Shown here: piece after piece, positions 13,872 through 18,465 of the stretch
Position numbering within the stretch: position 1 is the stretch's first letter
Layout: every line of letters starts with the position of its first letter
Virus record (IMG/VR): IMGVR_UViG_3300046780_000170
Span: 1 to 41,526 of that record
Direction: 5' to 3' (one strand)
From: a virus
DNA: 41,526 bases
The notes under the pieces: model-generated
Database searches by the model: none
Told to the model about the DNA's origin: nothing
The model's input: the letters and a program-made list of their open reading frames with translations, nothing else
Made by a program: the position numbers and the translations under genes

Positions 13872-14444
13872 TCATTCCCGCGCCACGAGGCTGCTGACAT
13901 CGACTGAGACGTGTCTCACCTGACCGAACAGCAGCATGGCGATGACGGCGCGCTGACCTGTGACCGAGATAACGACGGCTTGGTGTCCTGCGAATGGTGA
14001 CCGGTTTCCCGGGGCTACGATGGCACCTACGCGGCGTCTAGCATCTGGTGCGTCGATTGATGCGGCGGCGGCCTGCGCGGCGTCCAGCGCGCTCCTGAGG
14101 GCCGCCACGACGGTGTCTGAGGTGTATGCCGGCAGCGAGCCGCATCGAACTAGGTCAACGACGCCTGGGGTGTCGCGGATGGGCGACCAGGACGTGTCGC
14201 GGTGGTCGAAGGCGATGAAGCCGTAGCGTGGGAACAGCGGGCGCTCGACGGGCTCGACCTTGGTCGGGATGACAGGATCACGCTGCCGGACGGTGCGGGT
14301 GGGGAACCAGACGCGATAGCCCACGAGCTCGAGGTTGGTCTTGGCCCAGGTCTCGGCTTGTGGCTGGGTATAAACGCAAGCCCAACGAATGCTGTGGCAC
14401 CCGAGGTGTTTGGCCACGGGGGCTGCGGTATCTACGGCTGCCAT
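13872..14444 (-). CDS. NusG/RfaH-like transcription antitermination protein
   Basis: About 190 residues from ATG 14444; GTG at 14465 or a longer frame to 14513 is possible. The NGN domain is clear: IRWACVYTQPQAETWAKTNL, then GYRVWFPTRT, PLFPRYGFIAFD and a GVVDLVRCGSLPAYTSD segment. The C-terminal part (GAIVAPGNRSPFAGHQAVVI, VRHVSVDVSSLV) is KOW-like. NusG-family proteins bind RNA polymerase and suppress pausing. It is last in the leftward early operon, the place of lambda Q, so it is a good candidate for late-gene antitermination. It converges with the small plus-strand operon. Confidence 0.8.
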   Translation of the reverse strand: MAAVDTAAPVAKHLGCHSIRWACVYTQPQAETWAKTNLELVGYRVWFPTRTVRQRDPVIPTKVEPVERPLFPRYGFIAFDHRDTSWSPIRDTPGVVDLVRCGSLPAYTSDTVVAALRSALDAAQAAAASIDAPDARRRVGAIVAPGNRSPFAGHQAVVISVTGQRAVIAMLLFGQVRHVSVDVSSLVARE

Positions 14445-14467
14445 CACGGATGCGTCAAGCGGCACGA

Positions 14468-14680
14468 TCAATCCAGGCTCTCGCGGACGGTGGCGAGGAC
14501 GTGCTCGGTCCATTCGGCGGCGAGCGGGATGCGGTCCTCGGGGGCCCAGCAGCGGAGCGCGTTGGTGGCCAGAAATCCTGCCAGCGTGAGCACGTCGTGG
14601 GGGTGTTGGTCGTAGAGGCGGCGCCCGAGCGATGCCATCATGTCAGCCAATTCGTGCTGGGTGAGCGGCTGCGGGGTCAC
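14468..14680 (-). CDS. Small protein, unknown function
   Basis: 70 residues from a GTG in a GTGA overlap with the preceding stop. All-helical (LTQHELADMMASLGRRLYDQ, DVLTLAGFLATNALRCW, EWTEHVLATVRESL). No known motif. Its place between replication-type genes and the NusG-like gene suggests a replication or transcription accessory role. Confidence 0.6.
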   Translation of the reverse strand: MTPQPLTQHELADMMASLGRRLYDQHPHDVLTLAGFLATNALRCWAPEDRIPLAAEWTEHVLATVRESLD

Positions 14681-15150
14681 GCCGCATGCTCGCCGCGGTG
14701 GAGGTAAGCCCATGCGTCTGGCGCGTGCTGGTGCAGCAGGCTGAGCGTATGCTCGCGCCAGTCGGTCACATCGGGGCGCGACAGCCGCCCGTCCTTCTCG
14801 CGTAGCGGCGCGAAGCCCTCGCGCTCGCGGCGCTGGTAGTAGCTCAGCCAGTGTCGGTTTTTCGCATCCATGTCAGCCACATTGTCGTTTAGCGCGGGAT
14901 AAGAGGGTGCCGGGAGTTGGCGCTGCCAGTCGCGGAGGTGGGCGACAAGCTCGCCGTAGGTCGGCAGGAACCGGCATTCGGCCGCGACATATTCCAGCGA
15001 TATGTTAGTCAAGCTTTCATTTTGGAACCGCATTGCGAGCAATGGCGCAATGTCCTCGACGAACTCGGCCGCATCGATCTCGTCCAGCTTGGCGGCGGTG
15101 ATCCTGCCGAGCCGAATGAGCCAGCGTTGGGCGATGATGAGGTCAGCCAT
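14677..15150 (-). CDS. Putative replication accessory protein
   Basis: 157 residues from ATG 15150, which overlaps the end of the DUF1376 gene. Helical, with WLIRLGRITAAKLDEIDA, then EYVAAECRFLPTYGELVAHL and a basic C-terminal region. Position directly after a DUF1376 protein is where phages often carry helicase-loader or primosome partners. No Walker motif is present, so it is not a DnaC-type ATPase. Function is inferred from position only. Confidence 0.6.
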   Translation of the reverse strand: MADLIIAQRWLIRLGRITAAKLDEIDAAEFVEDIAPLLAMRFQNESLTNISLEYVAAECRFLPTYGELVAHLRDWQRQLPAPSYPALNDNVADMDAKNRHWLSYYQRREREGFAPLREKDGRLSRPDVTDWREHTLSLLHQHAPDAWAYLHRGEHAA

Positions 15151-15913
15151 AGGCAGTCCCCTTGAGCTTGGCGACATAGTCGTGGAGTTGGACGACGTCC
15201 TCGGCAGTGCCATCGATCGTGGCAGTTTCTGCGGCTTCCAGGCGTCGCTCCAGTTCGACGAAGCCATTTCTGTGAGGTTTGGAGCGCGCGACGCGCCCCC
15301 CCCGACTGACGGGGGGGCTACGGGGGGGTTCTTTCCTGTCTTCTCCTGTCCTGTCAAACGCGCGCGAGGTCACATGACGCGTCACCAGAGCGTCACGTGA
15401 CGGAGAATGTGACGCGTCACCAGAGCCTCTGTGACGCGTCACAACATCGTCACTCGGAGGGGCTTGGCCGTTCGGTTTTTCGGGAGGGTGTGAGCCGTTC
15501 TGACTGGCCCGCCAACGCCTCATGCGTTCGGTGGCAGCCTCACGGTCGTCCTTGTGTTTTAATCGTGAGTCGTACGCCTTCAGCGCCTGCTCCGCCAGGA
15601 CGTGGTGATACCAGCGGTTGTCCCCGCAAAGCACGAAGCCATGCAGCGCCATCCCAGCCCGCAGCTTTTTCCAGGTCTTTGTATCCCGGCCAAGCCCAGC
15701 CAGTCGGCACAAAACGGCGTCGTCGTTCGGCAGGCTCGCAGCAGGCACCTGTTGCCACGCTTCCCACCACAGCCGCATCGCCACGCGGAACTCTAGGTCA
15801 TTGGCCCTAGCGTCGAAGTCGGAGGCGAACAACCGGCGGCCGAGCAGGGGCATCCACTCGTAGCCGCGCAGATCACAGTCAGGGGGCGTCAGAGGCATAG
15901 GAAGATCACTCAT
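15143..15913 (-). CDS. DUF1376-type replication protein (YdaU-like)
   Basis: 256 residues. Residues about 18-120 are a DUF1376 domain (YEWMPLLGRRLFASDFDARA, EFRVAMRLWWEAWQQVPAASL, LRAGMALHGFVLCGDNRWYH, QALKAYDSRL). These proteins occur at the replication-gene position of many temperate phages and resemble winged-helix replication initiators. Residues about 150-180 are a Ser/Thr/His-rich linker encoded by the iteron-like repeats at 15369-15442, with a Pro-rich segment after it. Having the repeats inside the replication gene recalls lambda O. The ATG overlaps the previous stop. Confidence 0.75.
   Translation of the reverse strand: MSDLPMPLTPPDCDLRGYEWMPLLGRRLFASDFDARANDLEFRVAMRLWWEAWQQVPAASLPNDDAVLCRLAGLGRDTKTWKKLRAGMALHGFVLCGDNRWYHHVLAEQALKAYDSRLKHKDDREAATERMRRWRASQNGSHPPEKPNGQAPPSDDVVTRHRGSGDASHSPSRDALVTRHVTSRAFDRTGEDRKEPPRSPPVSRGGRVARSKPHRNGFVELERRLEAAETATIDGTAEDVVQLHDYVAKLKGTAYG
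15369..15442. repeat. Iteron-like cluster of GTGACGCGTCAC palindromes (candidate origin)
   Basis: Within 75 bp there are three copies of TGACGCGTCAC (15375, 15410 and 15432), two of them extended to the 12-bp perfect palindrome GTGACGCGTCAC (15409-15420, 15431-15442), plus the palindrome GTCACGTGAC at 15392 and GTCACATGAC at 15369. The 17-mer TGACGCGTCACCAGAGC is repeated directly at 15375 and 15410. Dense palindromic repeats inside a replication gene suit an origin or operator cluster. The encoded VTRH residues are too irregular to explain the palindromes. Confidence 0.55.
15895..15911. repeat. 17-bp direct repeat flanking the array module (left copy)
   Basis: GCATAGGAAGATCACTC here and GCATAGGGAGATCACTC at 18994-19010 differ at one base. 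Both overlap the first codons of a gene (MSDLPM and MSSDLPM). They bracket the 3.1-kb segment holding both arrays, the HNH gene and the transposase-domain gene. Shared sequence at gene starts may be a recombination seam or a shared translational control site. Confidence 0.45.
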
Positions 15914-16172
15914 GGCAGCCACTCCCCACGGCCACGACGTAGGTCCGCCGATCGCGCCAGGCCCCCCGCGTCTCGGTTTGAATGCCCGCCTCGGCCAGCA
16001 CCCGGCGCATGTGCCGCGCACCCTCGCCAGCGCTGATGTGCAGGAACCGCCCCATCCACGCGGCCGATGGAATACGGCACCCAGGCCGCAGCCGGGGCAA
16101 TATCCACCGCTCGATCTTGGCGCGGTGCAGACGGCCCTCCGGCCTGGAATGTGAATATGTCGGGATTGTCAT
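15906..16172 (-). CDS. Small basic protein, possible HTH
   Basis: 88 residues. GGAG lies 9 bases before the ATG and the stop overlaps the DUF1376 start. Residues about 15-65 (AKIERWILPRLRPGCRIPSA, AWMGRFLHISAGEGARHMRR, VLAEAGIQTETR) suggest a winged-helix-like DNA-binding unit, with a YVVAVG strand at the end. Longer frames run upstream through repeats and hairpins but lack support. It is probably a small DNA-binding partner of the replication genes. Confidence 0.6.
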   Translation of the reverse strand: MTIPTYSHSRPEGRLHRAKIERWILPRLRPGCRIPSAAWMGRFLHISAGEGARHMRRVLAEAGIQTETRGAWRDRRTYVVAVGSGCHE

Positions 16173-16728
16173 GGCACAGCTCCGTTGACGCGGGGCAACG
16201 GCTATGCAAAATGAGCCCGTCAGGTTGCTCAGTTGCATAACCATCAGCACCGATGGTTCCAGTTTCAGCGCCCTCCGTGCTTCCAACACGGGGGGCGTTT
16301 TCATTGTGGCGTGAGCGATTGAGTCTGGCAACAAGTCGCTCTCGTTTCTCGGCACACTCTTGAGTCGCGGCTCGCTCGTGCATTCGGGTACGCTCGTTTC
16401 TAACGGCTCGCTCCGTGACGACGGCGCTCTCAAAGGTCACGGCTCGCTCTCGACCCACGGCACTCTCGCAGGGTCCGGCTCGCTCACTTTCGACGATACT
16501 CTCCAGCGCGACGGCTCGCTCGGTATGCTCGGCACTCTCTGATCCCACGGCTCGCTCAAGTCTTGCGGCACTCTCCGCGACGACGGCTAGCTCACCTCCA
16601 TCGGTACTCTCCCTAATGGCGGCTCGCTCCGTGCACTCGGTACTCTCCGAAGCCGCGGCTCGCTCGAGCAGCTCGGCACTCTCACCAACGTTGGCTCGCT
16701 CACCGTAACAGGTACTCTCCACGGTCAC
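15910..16728 (-). CDS. Possible array-1 reading frame (E-[S/R]-A-x3 repeat protein)
   Basis: A GTG in a GTGA overlap with the stop of the transposase-domain gene opens a frame through all of array 1, giving MTVESTCYGERANVGES and onward as alternating E-S-A/T and E-R-A triplets with three variable residues between. This is a different frame from the one used in array 2. After the repeats the frame runs on to 15910 through hairpins and over the 88-residue gene, so its C-terminal half is probably not translated as such. GTGA coupling is used elsewhere in this operon, which supports initiation. There is no independent ribosome site. A non-coding array is an equal possibility. Confidence 0.3.
   Translation of the reverse strand: MTVESTCYGERANVGESAELLERAAASESTECTERAAIRESTDGGELAVVAESAARLERAVGSESAEHTERAVALESIVESERAGPCESAVGRERAVTFESAVVTERAVRNERTRMHERAATQECAEKRERLVARLNRSRHNENAPRVGSTEGAETGTIGADGYATEQPDGLILHSRCPASTELCHDNPDIFTFQAGGPSAPRQDRAVDIAPAAAWVPYSIGRVDGAVPAHQRWRGCAAHAPGAGRGGHSNRDAGGLARSADLRRGRGEWLP
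16203..16258. other. Two adjacent hairpins in a structured non-coding segment
   Basis: The first hairpin pairs TATGCAAAATGAGC (16203-16216) with GCTCAGTTGCATA (16227-16239) around CCGTCAGGTT. The second pairs AACCATC (16239-16245) with GATGGTT (16252-16258). A third follows at 16269-16301. The gap lies between array 1 and the next gene and has no supported coding frame. It could be a leader or a structured RNA belonging to the array module. Confidence 0.5.
16269..16301 (+). terminator. Strong hairpin with T-tract (plus orientation)
   Basis: CGCCCTCCGTG pairs over 11 bp with CACGGGGGGCG around CTTCCAA, followed by TTTT. It ends plus-strand transcription heading into array 1. On the minus strand it is one of three successive hairpins before the gene at 16172. 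The plus-strand source is not obvious. Confidence 0.5.
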
Positions 16729-16737
16729 GGCTTCAAA
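16333..16737 (-). repeat. Array 1: alternating 9-bp repeats with 9-bp variable spacers, exact 18-bp period
   Basis: Read on the minus strand, GAGCGAGCC (type A) alternates with GAGAGTRCC (type B), each followed by 9 variable bases. There are 21 clear repeats from 16351 to 16719 (11 B, 10 A), with degenerate A-type edges at 16333 and 16729. No indel breaks the 18-bp period. Nine of ten A copies are identical; one reads GAGCTAGCC. B variants cluster at the low-coordinate end (16351, 16387, 16423, 16495), away from the transposase-domain gene, like the decayed distal end of a CRISPR. All 21 spacers differ from each other. Confidence 0.9.
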
Positions 16738-17588
16738 CCCGGAACCAAGTGCTGGTTCGGCACCTCGATGCGGTGAACATGGCCCCCAACGTGATCCAAG
16801 ACATAGGGCTTGGGTGGCCGTTCTCCGTACGTAACGAAGAACAGAACTTCGTGGAAATGGCTCAAGAATATCTTGACTGCCCACCGCTGCGCCCGAAGAT
16901 GAATGCGCGCAGGGGGAAGCTTGCCGGCAAGATAGTGCTTCTTCGCAGCCGTATCGTCCCCAAACCGCTTGGCCGTGAGTGATGCGGCAGCCTGCTCGGC
17001 GTAGTCCCCGGCCTCATTGCGCGCGATCTCACGCTCTTTGCGCTGCTGGTAGAGTTTGCCGTAGGTGTCGTCGGGGTGGTTGGAAACCTTGGTGAACGAC
17101 TCACCCACAATCCAACACAGGCGCTTGAGGCTGGCGTTCCACGGGCGTTTGGTCCCCTTGTCCCACTTCACTGTCGGATCGAGGCCGCAGAACCGCCATA
17201 TGTGCCCGACGGTGGGGGCTTTGGCGATGTCGATATGAGCGAGGAAGCCCGCGGTGATGACCGGGCCGATACCGACGATGCTGCGCATCCACACGCCAGC
17301 AGGCTGACCGGCGCCGTAGACATCCAGCGCGGCTTTAATCTGGTTCTCCAGTACCTGTTCCTGGGTGAACAGCCACGCGATGGTGTCGTGTGGTTCCGGG
17401 GCTTTCTCGTCGGTGGCCTGTGACAGCGTGCGGACCTGGTGTGCGGATCGGATGCGGTCTTCCTGGATCTTATAGTAGGCGTCACATAAAAATCTGACTT
17501 CGGCAGTCCCCAATGTTCTGGATGCTTCCCGTAAATCCTTGGTTAGCTTCTGTATTGGTGTCAGCAGAGAGGGATCAAGGTCGCTCAT
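16725..17588 (-). CDS. IS110-type C-terminal transposase-domain protein lacking a DEDD domain
   Basis: 287 residues. Residues about 100-170 match the Transposase_20 domain of IS110/IS116/IS902 enzymes: MRSIVGIGPVITAGFLAHID (helix-hairpin-helix-like), HIWRFCGLDPTVKWDKGTKR, and LKRLCWIVGESFTK. The first 100 residues are helical and show no RuvC-like DEDD motifs, which in true IS110 transposases occupy the N-terminus. I cannot place the catalytic serine. It is probably a domesticated nucleic-acid-binding relative and not an active element; no IS ends are seen. The ATG overlaps the HNH stop (ATGA), and the last codons (TTG AAG CCG TGA) form the degenerate first repeat of array 1. Confidence 0.75.
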   Translation of the reverse strand: MSDLDPSLLTPIQKLTKDLREASRTLGTAEVRFLCDAYYKIQEDRIRSAHQVRTLSQATDEKAPEPHDTIAWLFTQEQVLENQIKAALDVYGAGQPAGVWMRSIVGIGPVITAGFLAHIDIAKAPTVGHIWRFCGLDPTVKWDKGTKRPWNASLKRLCWIVGESFTKVSNHPDDTYGKLYQQRKEREIARNEAGDYAEQAAASLTAKRFGDDTAAKKHYLAGKLPPARIHLRAQRWAVKIFLSHFHEVLFFVTYGERPPKPYVLDHVGGHVHRIEVPNQHLVPGLKP

Positions 17589-18097
17589 GGCTTTTCAATC
17601 CACTGCTGGTTGTTGACGATCTTGAAGATAGTTCCCCGGTTTGCATTGAAGCGGCGCGCAAGATCGGCCTTAGGCTCTCCAGCCGCATGCGCAGCGCGGA
17701 TGGCACGAACAGCGTCCCACGTCAGACGAGCTGCGGGATGATCTTCGGCGCGTTTAAGATACTCAGGACTGGCGCGCGCCGGATGCTGGTCGCCGTAAAG
17801 GTGTCCATGCCGCAGTCGGCCTTTGGCAATCTTGTCATCGGTATTGTCCTGGTGCGTGCCAAGGAACAGGTGATCTGGGTTCCAACATGGCGGGTTGTCG
17901 CAGCGGTGCAGCACGAGCAATCCGCATGGGATGGGACCGCGATGGAACTCCCAGGAAAGGCGATGAACGTGGCGGACTTTCCCTTTGCGATTGATCTCCC
18001 CATAGCCGGCCTTTGTGCGCGCGCCAGCCCACACCCAACAGCCATCTGGTGTTCGTTGTGATCGTCGTTCCAACACCGCTAACAGGCTATCGCTCAT
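17585..18097 (-). CDS. HNH endonuclease of the array module
   Basis: 170 residues. Residues about 17-30 read PDGCWVWAGARTKAGYGEI, and the HNH_3-type core follows: VHRLSWEFHRGPIP near 43, then LLVLHRCDNPPCWNPDHLFL with GTHQDN. Residues 120-165 form a helix-turn-helix (ARLTWDAVRAIRAAHAAGE, LARRFNANRGTIFKIVNN). AGGAG lies 6 bases before the ATG, immediately after the array-2 stop. The stop overlaps the transposase-domain start. Coupling to that gene, with arrays on both sides, suggests a joint function. A homing endonuclease that simply landed here is the main alternative. Confidence 0.88.
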   Translation of the reverse strand: MSDSLLAVLERRSQRTPDGCWVWAGARTKAGYGEINRKGKVRHVHRLSWEFHRGPIPCGLLVLHRCDNPPCWNPDHLFLGTHQDNTDDKIAKGRLRHGHLYGDQHPARASPEYLKRAEDHPAARLTWDAVRAIRAAHAAGEPKADLARRFNANRGTIFKIVNNQQWIEKP

Positions 18098-18107
18098 GTG
18101 CGCTCCT

Positions 18108-18464
18108 CTATCGCGGTACTCTCGGGCGCCACGGCTCGCTCACCTGATCCGGTACTCTCATGCTGGCTGGCTCGCTCTCAGTCATCGGCACTCTCCGAAG
18201 ACCCGGCTCGCTCTTGGGTGCCGGAACACTCTCGCACCACGGCTCGCTCCTTTCACCCGGCACTCTCGGGGGCCACGGCTCGCTCTGCATATCCGGCACT
18301 CTCACAGGCGGCGGCTCGCTCACCTGATCCGGTACTCTCATACTAGCTGGCTCGCTCCCCTTAACCGGTACACTCGTCAGGCGCGGCTCGCTCAGGCTAC
18401 GCGGCACTCTCTTCCAGCTCGGCTCGCTCAGGCTCATCGGTACTCTCGCCGCGCGCGGCTTCAT
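18108..18464 (-). CDS. Array-2 repeat protein, (S/R)-(E/V)-P-x3 repeats
   Basis: 118 residues, starting MKPRAARVPMSLSEP and continuing to the end as alternating SEP and RVP triplets separated by three variable residues (12-residue period; two RVP copies are SVP). The ATG overlaps the stop of the preceding micro-gene (ATGA), and a GGAGGGGGG ribosome site lies just upstream, so translation is well supported. The stop is followed directly by the HNH ribosome site. B-type variants keep Val and Pro, and the base completing the Pro codon varies freely. No known family; likely extended, proline-kinked and charge-alternating. It may be a protein or the coding side of an RNA/DNA element. Confidence 0.65.
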   Translation of the reverse strand: MKPRAARVPMSLSEPSWKRVPRSLSEPRLTSVPVKGSEPASMRVPDQVSEPPPVRVPDMQSEPWPPRVPGERSEPWCESVPAPKSEPGLRRVPMTESEPASMRVPDQVSEPWRPRVPR

Positions 18465-18465
18465 C
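18115..18465 (-). repeat. Array 2: alternating 9-bp repeats with 9-bp variable spacers, exact 18-bp period
   Basis: Same repeats and phase as array 1: 19 clear copies from 18115 to 18447 (10 B, 9 A) and a degenerate A-type edge at 18457 (GATGAAGCC on the minus strand). All nine A copies are identical. B copies are GAGAGTACC or GAGAGTGCC, with two variants, GAGTGTTCC and GAGTGTACC. One 45-bp unit (18133-18177) recurs at 18313-18357 with two mismatches, showing internal duplication. The remaining spacers are all different. Confidence 0.92.

Follow-up and report, generated by a model that had tools for sequence, protein, structure and literature searches.

The virus contig IMGVR_UViG_3300046780_000170 from IMG/VR was analyzed over its full length of 41.5 kb, which we call the window. 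It belongs to a tailed soil phage with portal, terminase and major head genes, all of them on the minus strand. At positions 16332-18465 the contig carries two repeat arrays around two overlapping genes. This locus is a TIGR-Tas system in the TasA form with a separate HNH gene, a kind of system that is already known. Array 1 (18465 to 18101, 10 units) comes first on the minus strand and is followed by the HNH gene, tasA and array 2 (16737 to 16332, 11 units); a first-pass annotation of this DNA is corrected here in that the arrays, like the genes, lie on the minus strand. The same annotation knew of no described system with such a layout. This statement does not hold, because TIGR-Tas was described in 2025 and the protein encoded here scores above the cut-off of the family model NF052498.

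The tasA gene (16725..17588, minus strand) encodes a TIGR-associated protein of 287 amino acids without a fused nuclease domain, which was identified with NCBIfam, the PDB and a predicted structure. Family score, profile and predicted fold all indicate a Tas protein with a Nop domain. The match to TIGR_Tas_endo (NF052498) has an E value of 2.2e-62 and a score of 210.9, with a cut-off of 100. In the PDB the protein finds TasR (3.3e-11) and TasH (5.3e-08), and its profile also recovers TasR and TasH chains. The predicted structure has a mean pLDDT of 82.7; all 11 significant structural matches (E below 0.001) are TasH or TasR. An IS110-type transposase domain had been assigned to this protein, which is not a transposase: its match to Transposase_20 is weak (E=3e-4), and the IS110 equivalog model gives only 23 bits against a cut-off of 140. 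Homologues of tasA were found in genomes of several phyla. A search for the TasA protein among GenBank phages found nothing. Halfway through the Nop region, the TasA of L006/L007 (L007:994-1950) contains a 31-residue insertion that includes a Cys/His-rich segment.

The existence of the arrays is confirmed, and chance is far from accounting for them. Along the minus strand an edge repeat, GAGCGAGCCG, alternates with a loop repeat, GAGAGTRCCG, at a period of exactly 18 nucleotides, and variable spacers of 8 nucleotides separate them. A guide unit consists of edge repeat, spacer A, loop repeat and spacer B, with repeats of 10 nucleotides and a total length of 36 nucleotides; two alternating repeats of 8-12 nucleotides with short spacers are what is expected of TIGR-Tas. 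The alternation and the 18-bp period had been recognized before; the description as 9-bp repeats with 9-bp spacers has to be replaced by 10 and 8 nucleotides in a 36-nucleotide unit. Allowing up to 3 mismatches, we count 20 repeats at 18114-18465 and 22 at 16332-16719 in addition to truncated end repeats, so that the two arrays reported earlier stand with slightly different numbers (19 and 21 clear repeats at that time). Both arrays start with a 5'-truncated edge repeat and end with a 3'-truncated one, as is characteristic of TIGR-Tas. In array 1 (18101..18465, upstream; delimited by repeat parsing and direct reading) these are GATGAAGCCG and GAGCG. The latter lies 3 bases ahead of the HNH start codon and also resembles a Shine-Dalgarno sequence. 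Array 2 (16332..16737, downstream) begins at the tasA stop codon, with which its first spacer, TGACCGTG, opens. CRISPR-Cas was rejected on the grounds of repeat length (10 nucleotides versus 25-36) and of a PADLOC scan of the HNH and TasA proteins, which gave no Cas match. RNAs known to Rfam were rejected because the Rfam search gave no match.

The same repeats are present in 92 stretches of viral contigs. Some of the carriers, among them L010, L011 and L164, have far longer arrays (up to ~35 units per stretch) or a large number of arrays on one contig. Within array 1 of the window, two units (18141-18177 and 18321-18357) have the same spacer B and differ only slightly in spacer A (GCCAGCAT/GATCAGGT and GCTAGTAT/GATCAGGT). 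Several guides reappear in other phages with single transitions, as if they were following target variants or tolerating G-T pairing.

The HNH gene (17585..18097, minus strand) codes for an HNH_3 nuclease of 170 amino acids of the free-standing homing-endonuclease type (Pfam HNH_3, 3.8e-13; PADLOC homing endonuclease model, 5.9e-06). As already noted in the first-pass annotation, it overlaps the second gene, then labeled Transposase_20, by four bases (17585-18097 and 16725-17588). In the TasH subtype the HNH domain is fused at the N-terminus of the Tas protein; here it is a separate overlapping gene. In the nearest tasA relatives (96% identical protein) array 1 ends directly ahead of tasA and there is no HNH gene, while arrays and tasA are kept. 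Two further branches, L008 (66%) and L165 (62%), have an HNH of the same type immediately ahead of tasA, and their relatives are without it. These two proteins are the closest relatives of the HNH found in IMG/VR, and both are neighbours of tasA. Because the nearest relatives are without the gene and two other branches have it upstream of tasA, the HNH is a sporadic but recurrent partner or neighbour of tasA. A fixed partnership as a general rule was rejected, since this HNH type occurs near 5/80 tas hits (directly upstream of tasA in 3) and is missing from the nearest relatives. Arrays found mostly without these genes had been named as evidence against a functional link; this argument touches the HNH gene and leaves tasA unaffected, because most array contigs that cover neighbouring DNA carry a homologue of the latter.

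The two spacers of a tigRNA guide, A and B, each pair with a different strand of the DNA (PMC12045711). The published cleavage products have 8-nucleotide 3' overhangs (PMC12045711); the target should therefore read as spacer A joined, with a gap of 0, to the reverse complement of spacer B. Besides this predicted arrangement we tested 27 combinations of pairing geometry and gap (0-6). Guides in which the spacers were re-paired among guides served as the control (5000 re-pairings); related guides and alleles are not fully independent, and the exact probability must not be over-read. A first search with 141 guides in related phages found exact matches in the predicted geometry beside the arrays of relatives. 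With 1282 guides from 90 loci and DNA ≤100 bp from arrays there were 2 exact and 9 near matches, compared with 0.02 and 1.03 after re-pairing. An excess of A.B pairs with gap 10 near arrays was rejected as array remnants.

Directly 3' of array 2 lies a promoter-like junction (16303..16331, minus strand; TTGCCA, 17 bp, CACAAT), and it is the counterpart of this junction in sibling phages that the terminal guides match. Sibling alleles were fetched via the conserved gene downstream of it, g15906 (15906..16172, minus strand), which encodes a small protein of 88 amino acids of no known family. In the junction DNA (19 alleles, 5.2 kb) 9/93 guides have a site with ≤1 mismatch: 4 are exact and 5 deviate at one position. 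The re-paired means were 0.055 (exact) and 0.18 (≤1 mismatch), and 0/5000 re-pairings reached either count. All 27 other geometry-gap combinations gave 0 matches in this set. The candidate sites would thus be read by the two spacers on opposite strands of adjacent target halves, as TIGR-Tas demands, and this in the predicted geometry only. The last unit of the window's array 2 (guide 11/11, CGACTCAA/AGAAACGA) matches the siblings G003 and G004 exactly; CGACTCAATCGTTTCT is an example of a sibling junction that is the candidate target of this guide. With ≤1 mismatch, guides 13, 14 and 15 of 15 of G006 match L357, G012 and L357 respectively, and guide 5/5 of G001 matches L359. L354 and L361 are hit by the first array-2 guides of G001 and G002, which fit the uninterrupted site, as it is seen in L361, with 1 mismatch. 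All of the guides that match junctions are the first or one of the last three units of their arrays. Most of them cover the promoter-like junction; one, guide 7/7 of G004, covers the start region of g15906 in L352.

The upstream part of the same loci (63.6 kb) gave 1 exact match and 3 at ≤1 mismatch, where 0.009 and 0.22 were expected. Here array-1 guide 2/7 of G004 is exact in L353 and L361, and the window's array-1 guide 1/10 fits L359 and L379 with one mismatch. Hence both flanks of the TIGR locus are matched by guides. Furthermore, in DNA that was fetched after the hypothesis had been formed, and with all earlier 24-mers masked, 4 guides match; 0.15 were expected and 0/5000 re-pairings reached this number. 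The matches at the cognate locus are allele-specific and avoid self: even the best site in their own genomes leaves the 12 matched guides with 2 to 5 mismatches, in most cases 4 or 5, some of these own sequences being partial.

The same kind of pattern, though weaker, was seen in a second phage group. L135 and L209 are matched by the last guide of L164, L164 and L140 by the last guide of L207/L209, and L161 by guide 18/18 of L207/L172, each with 1 mismatch; the own homologous site has 3 mismatches in every case. Outside the window's group the excess at array flanks is about four-fold (8 versus 2.04), which is weaker, and it is not limited to terminal units.

The 17 loci fetched by the downstream gene include 4 with TIGR; L360, L361, L379 and L380 look empty, and the others hold other cargo. 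The position of the TIGR locus is a variable-cargo site in the siblings L350 (L237), L355 (L085), L360, L361, L379 and L380, which have a DUF5131 protein, a C-5 DNA methylase, other genes or nothing there. A clean empty site is found in L361, where the same upstream genes are followed by GATGACCGTTGCGAGACTC and then by g15906. In the alignment the upstream genes and a small gene ending in GATGA precede CCGTTGCGAGACTC and g15906, which places the insertion of the window's TIGR locus between TGA and GTTGC. Across alleles the junction motif reads TTCCGA or TTGCGA, 17 bp, then TATGAA, TAGAAA, TACAAA or CACAAT. The 17-bp spacing is kept in most alleles while the interior of the motif varies. Matched sites span -35 to +15 of this motif, upstream of a replication gene. 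In the window g15906 is followed by the gene of a replication protein with DUF1376 (15143-15913), and a NusG-like antitermination gene (13872-14513) lies in the same operon downstream of the junction. The junction has the appearance of a promoter and may drive the replication operon. A strong hairpin lies between array 2 and g15906 (window 16267-16299, plus strand) and recurs with altered sequence in sibling alleles. A rho-independent terminator after the array is typical of TIGR-Tas although not defining (PMC12045711). The hairpin after array 2 is terminator-like, but the genes and its T-run lie on opposite strands, and in this respect the locus lacks the typical terminator.

Taken together, the geometry, position and allele specificity of the matches make it fairly probable that the locus serves the RNA-guided exclusion of sibling phages through outer guides that act on the cognate locus, by binding or by cleavage and possibly together with homing. 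In this scheme the arrays would be cotranscribed with the HNH and tasA genes, and the transcript would be cut into tigRNAs of 36 nucleotides, each with two 8-nucleotide spacers, one for either strand of the same DNA site. In a sibling, the cognate locus would be recognized by the outermost guides at the junction just downstream of the cargo site and at sites just upstream of it. The carrier would be spared because its own alleles differ from the guide targets. TasA with its guides would most likely disable a co-infecting or superinfecting sibling by sitting on the junction, which, where an HNH partner is present, might perhaps be nicked or cut. Array-templated targeting in phage competition or recombination had been proposed in the first-pass annotation. 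Short guides for an IS110-related RNA-binding protein are borne out by the arrays, and phage competition is the best-supported role.

Several observations weigh against such an exclusion. About 80/93 guides have no match in the DNA searched, and the rule is seen for outer guides only. Elsewhere in 3.2 Mb of related phage DNA the excess of guide matches is nil to weak and nowhere clear; targeting across the genomes of related phages is accordingly not claimed. The sibling alleles all come from metagenomic contigs. In the only published test, phage infection of E. coli was not prevented by TasR (PMC12045711). Finally, the insertion point and the promoter-like motif nearly coincide, so that position does not separate targeting of the promoter from targeting of the insertion site.

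For the latter reason the sequence alone cannot decide between repression and homing. A TasA free of nuclease and a promoter are in line with repression, the match to an empty site and the HNH with homing. In RNA-guided homing, a tentative explanation that we regard as rather unlikely, the carrier would cut its own insertion site in a co-infecting sibling, in the empty or in an alternative form, and repair from the carrier would copy the TIGR locus over, as with phage homing endonucleases. L361 provides the uninterrupted empty site for this, and the site that is matched by the first array-2 guides of G001 and G002 is interrupted in phages that carry TIGR; this point is based on the guides of these two loci and not on the window's own first guide. 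The guide matches on both flanks and the homing-endonuclease type of the HNH in the window also fit, and T4 homing endonucleases share the non-self logic and the marker exclusion (PMC2988022). On the other hand, TasA has no nuclease domain, an HNH of this type is absent from the nearly complete G002 despite its TIGR locus and guides, several guides find their match in siblings already equipped with TIGR, and no mobility was observed. It is likewise possible, albeit with low probability, that TIGR loci in general are RNA-guided homing elements, in which the array ends store guides against empty or alternative alleles and the locus spreads while excluding the alleles of relatives.

Defense against unrelated mobile elements or the host, with the sibling matches as a minor part, is improbable. 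It would agree with the many guides that remain without a match and with the loss of plasmids, the sole published activity of native TIGR nucleases (PMC12045711). There was, against this, no excess of matches outside the cognate locus in the 3.2 Mb; this search did not extend to unrelated phages, plasmids or hosts. It is also improbable that the terminal spacers are fossils of array growth, in which neighbouring sequence was copied and no targeting occurs. The matching units are indeed terminal and their sites adjoin the array. Simple copying, however, should leave both halves in the same orientation, a geometry with 0 matches in the junction set. In the actual matches the second half is inverted without exception, in exact agreement with the published rule for targeting; the guides also fit siblings better than their carrier. 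That the protein is an IS110 transposase with a bridge-RNA-like array, as the weak Transposase_20 match could suggest, can be dismissed almost entirely, because the 287 amino acids contain no DEDD domain, the IS110 score is far below its cut-off while TIGR_Tas (211 versus 100) is far above, and there is no single bridge RNA.

The discoverers of TIGR-Tas considered the genuine spacer targets and the biological role unknown and the nuclease-free TasA hardest to explain (PMC12045711). We found no later paper on TIGR targets in a literature search without most subscription papers and preprints. Sibling phages now supply specific candidate natural targets with the predicted split geometry and self-avoidance. 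If binding is confirmed, this would explain the purpose of some TIGR arrays and hint at the origin of their spacers; it would also add an RNA-guided layer to the competition between related phages.

TldR is a nuclease-free RNA-guided repressor. The present system resembles TldR-like repressors in an effector that lacks a nuclease and in guides over a promoter-like site; it differs in that the protein family is unrelated and that repression is here a prediction. The free-standing homing endonucleases seg and mob of T4 and their marker exclusion (PMC2988022) are similar in that an element at a variable phage site recognizes the alleles of co-infecting relatives and not its own genome. In contrast to them, recognition would be by RNA guides, many per locus, and is predicted here from sequence matches. 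The closest likeness is to TIGR-TasA and TIGR-TasH (Faure et al. 2025, PMC12045711), with which the locus shares the Nop-domain protein, the dual alternating repeats, the 36-nucleotide unit, the truncated edge repeats at array ends, the arrays on either side of the gene and the location in phages; the TIGR-TasH of a Salicola phage also has 8-nucleotide spacers. The repeat sequences differ, and the HNH that is fused in TIGR-TasH is here a sporadic separate gene that overlaps tasA. As far as its main text goes, PMC12045711 describes HNH as a fused domain only and TasA as having no clear associations except for a ParB-like gene in some cases; its supplement may already contain the split HNH-TasA arrangement. 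Natural targets of TIGR-TasA and TIGR-TasH were reported as hard to find (PMC12045711), whereas candidates were identified here.
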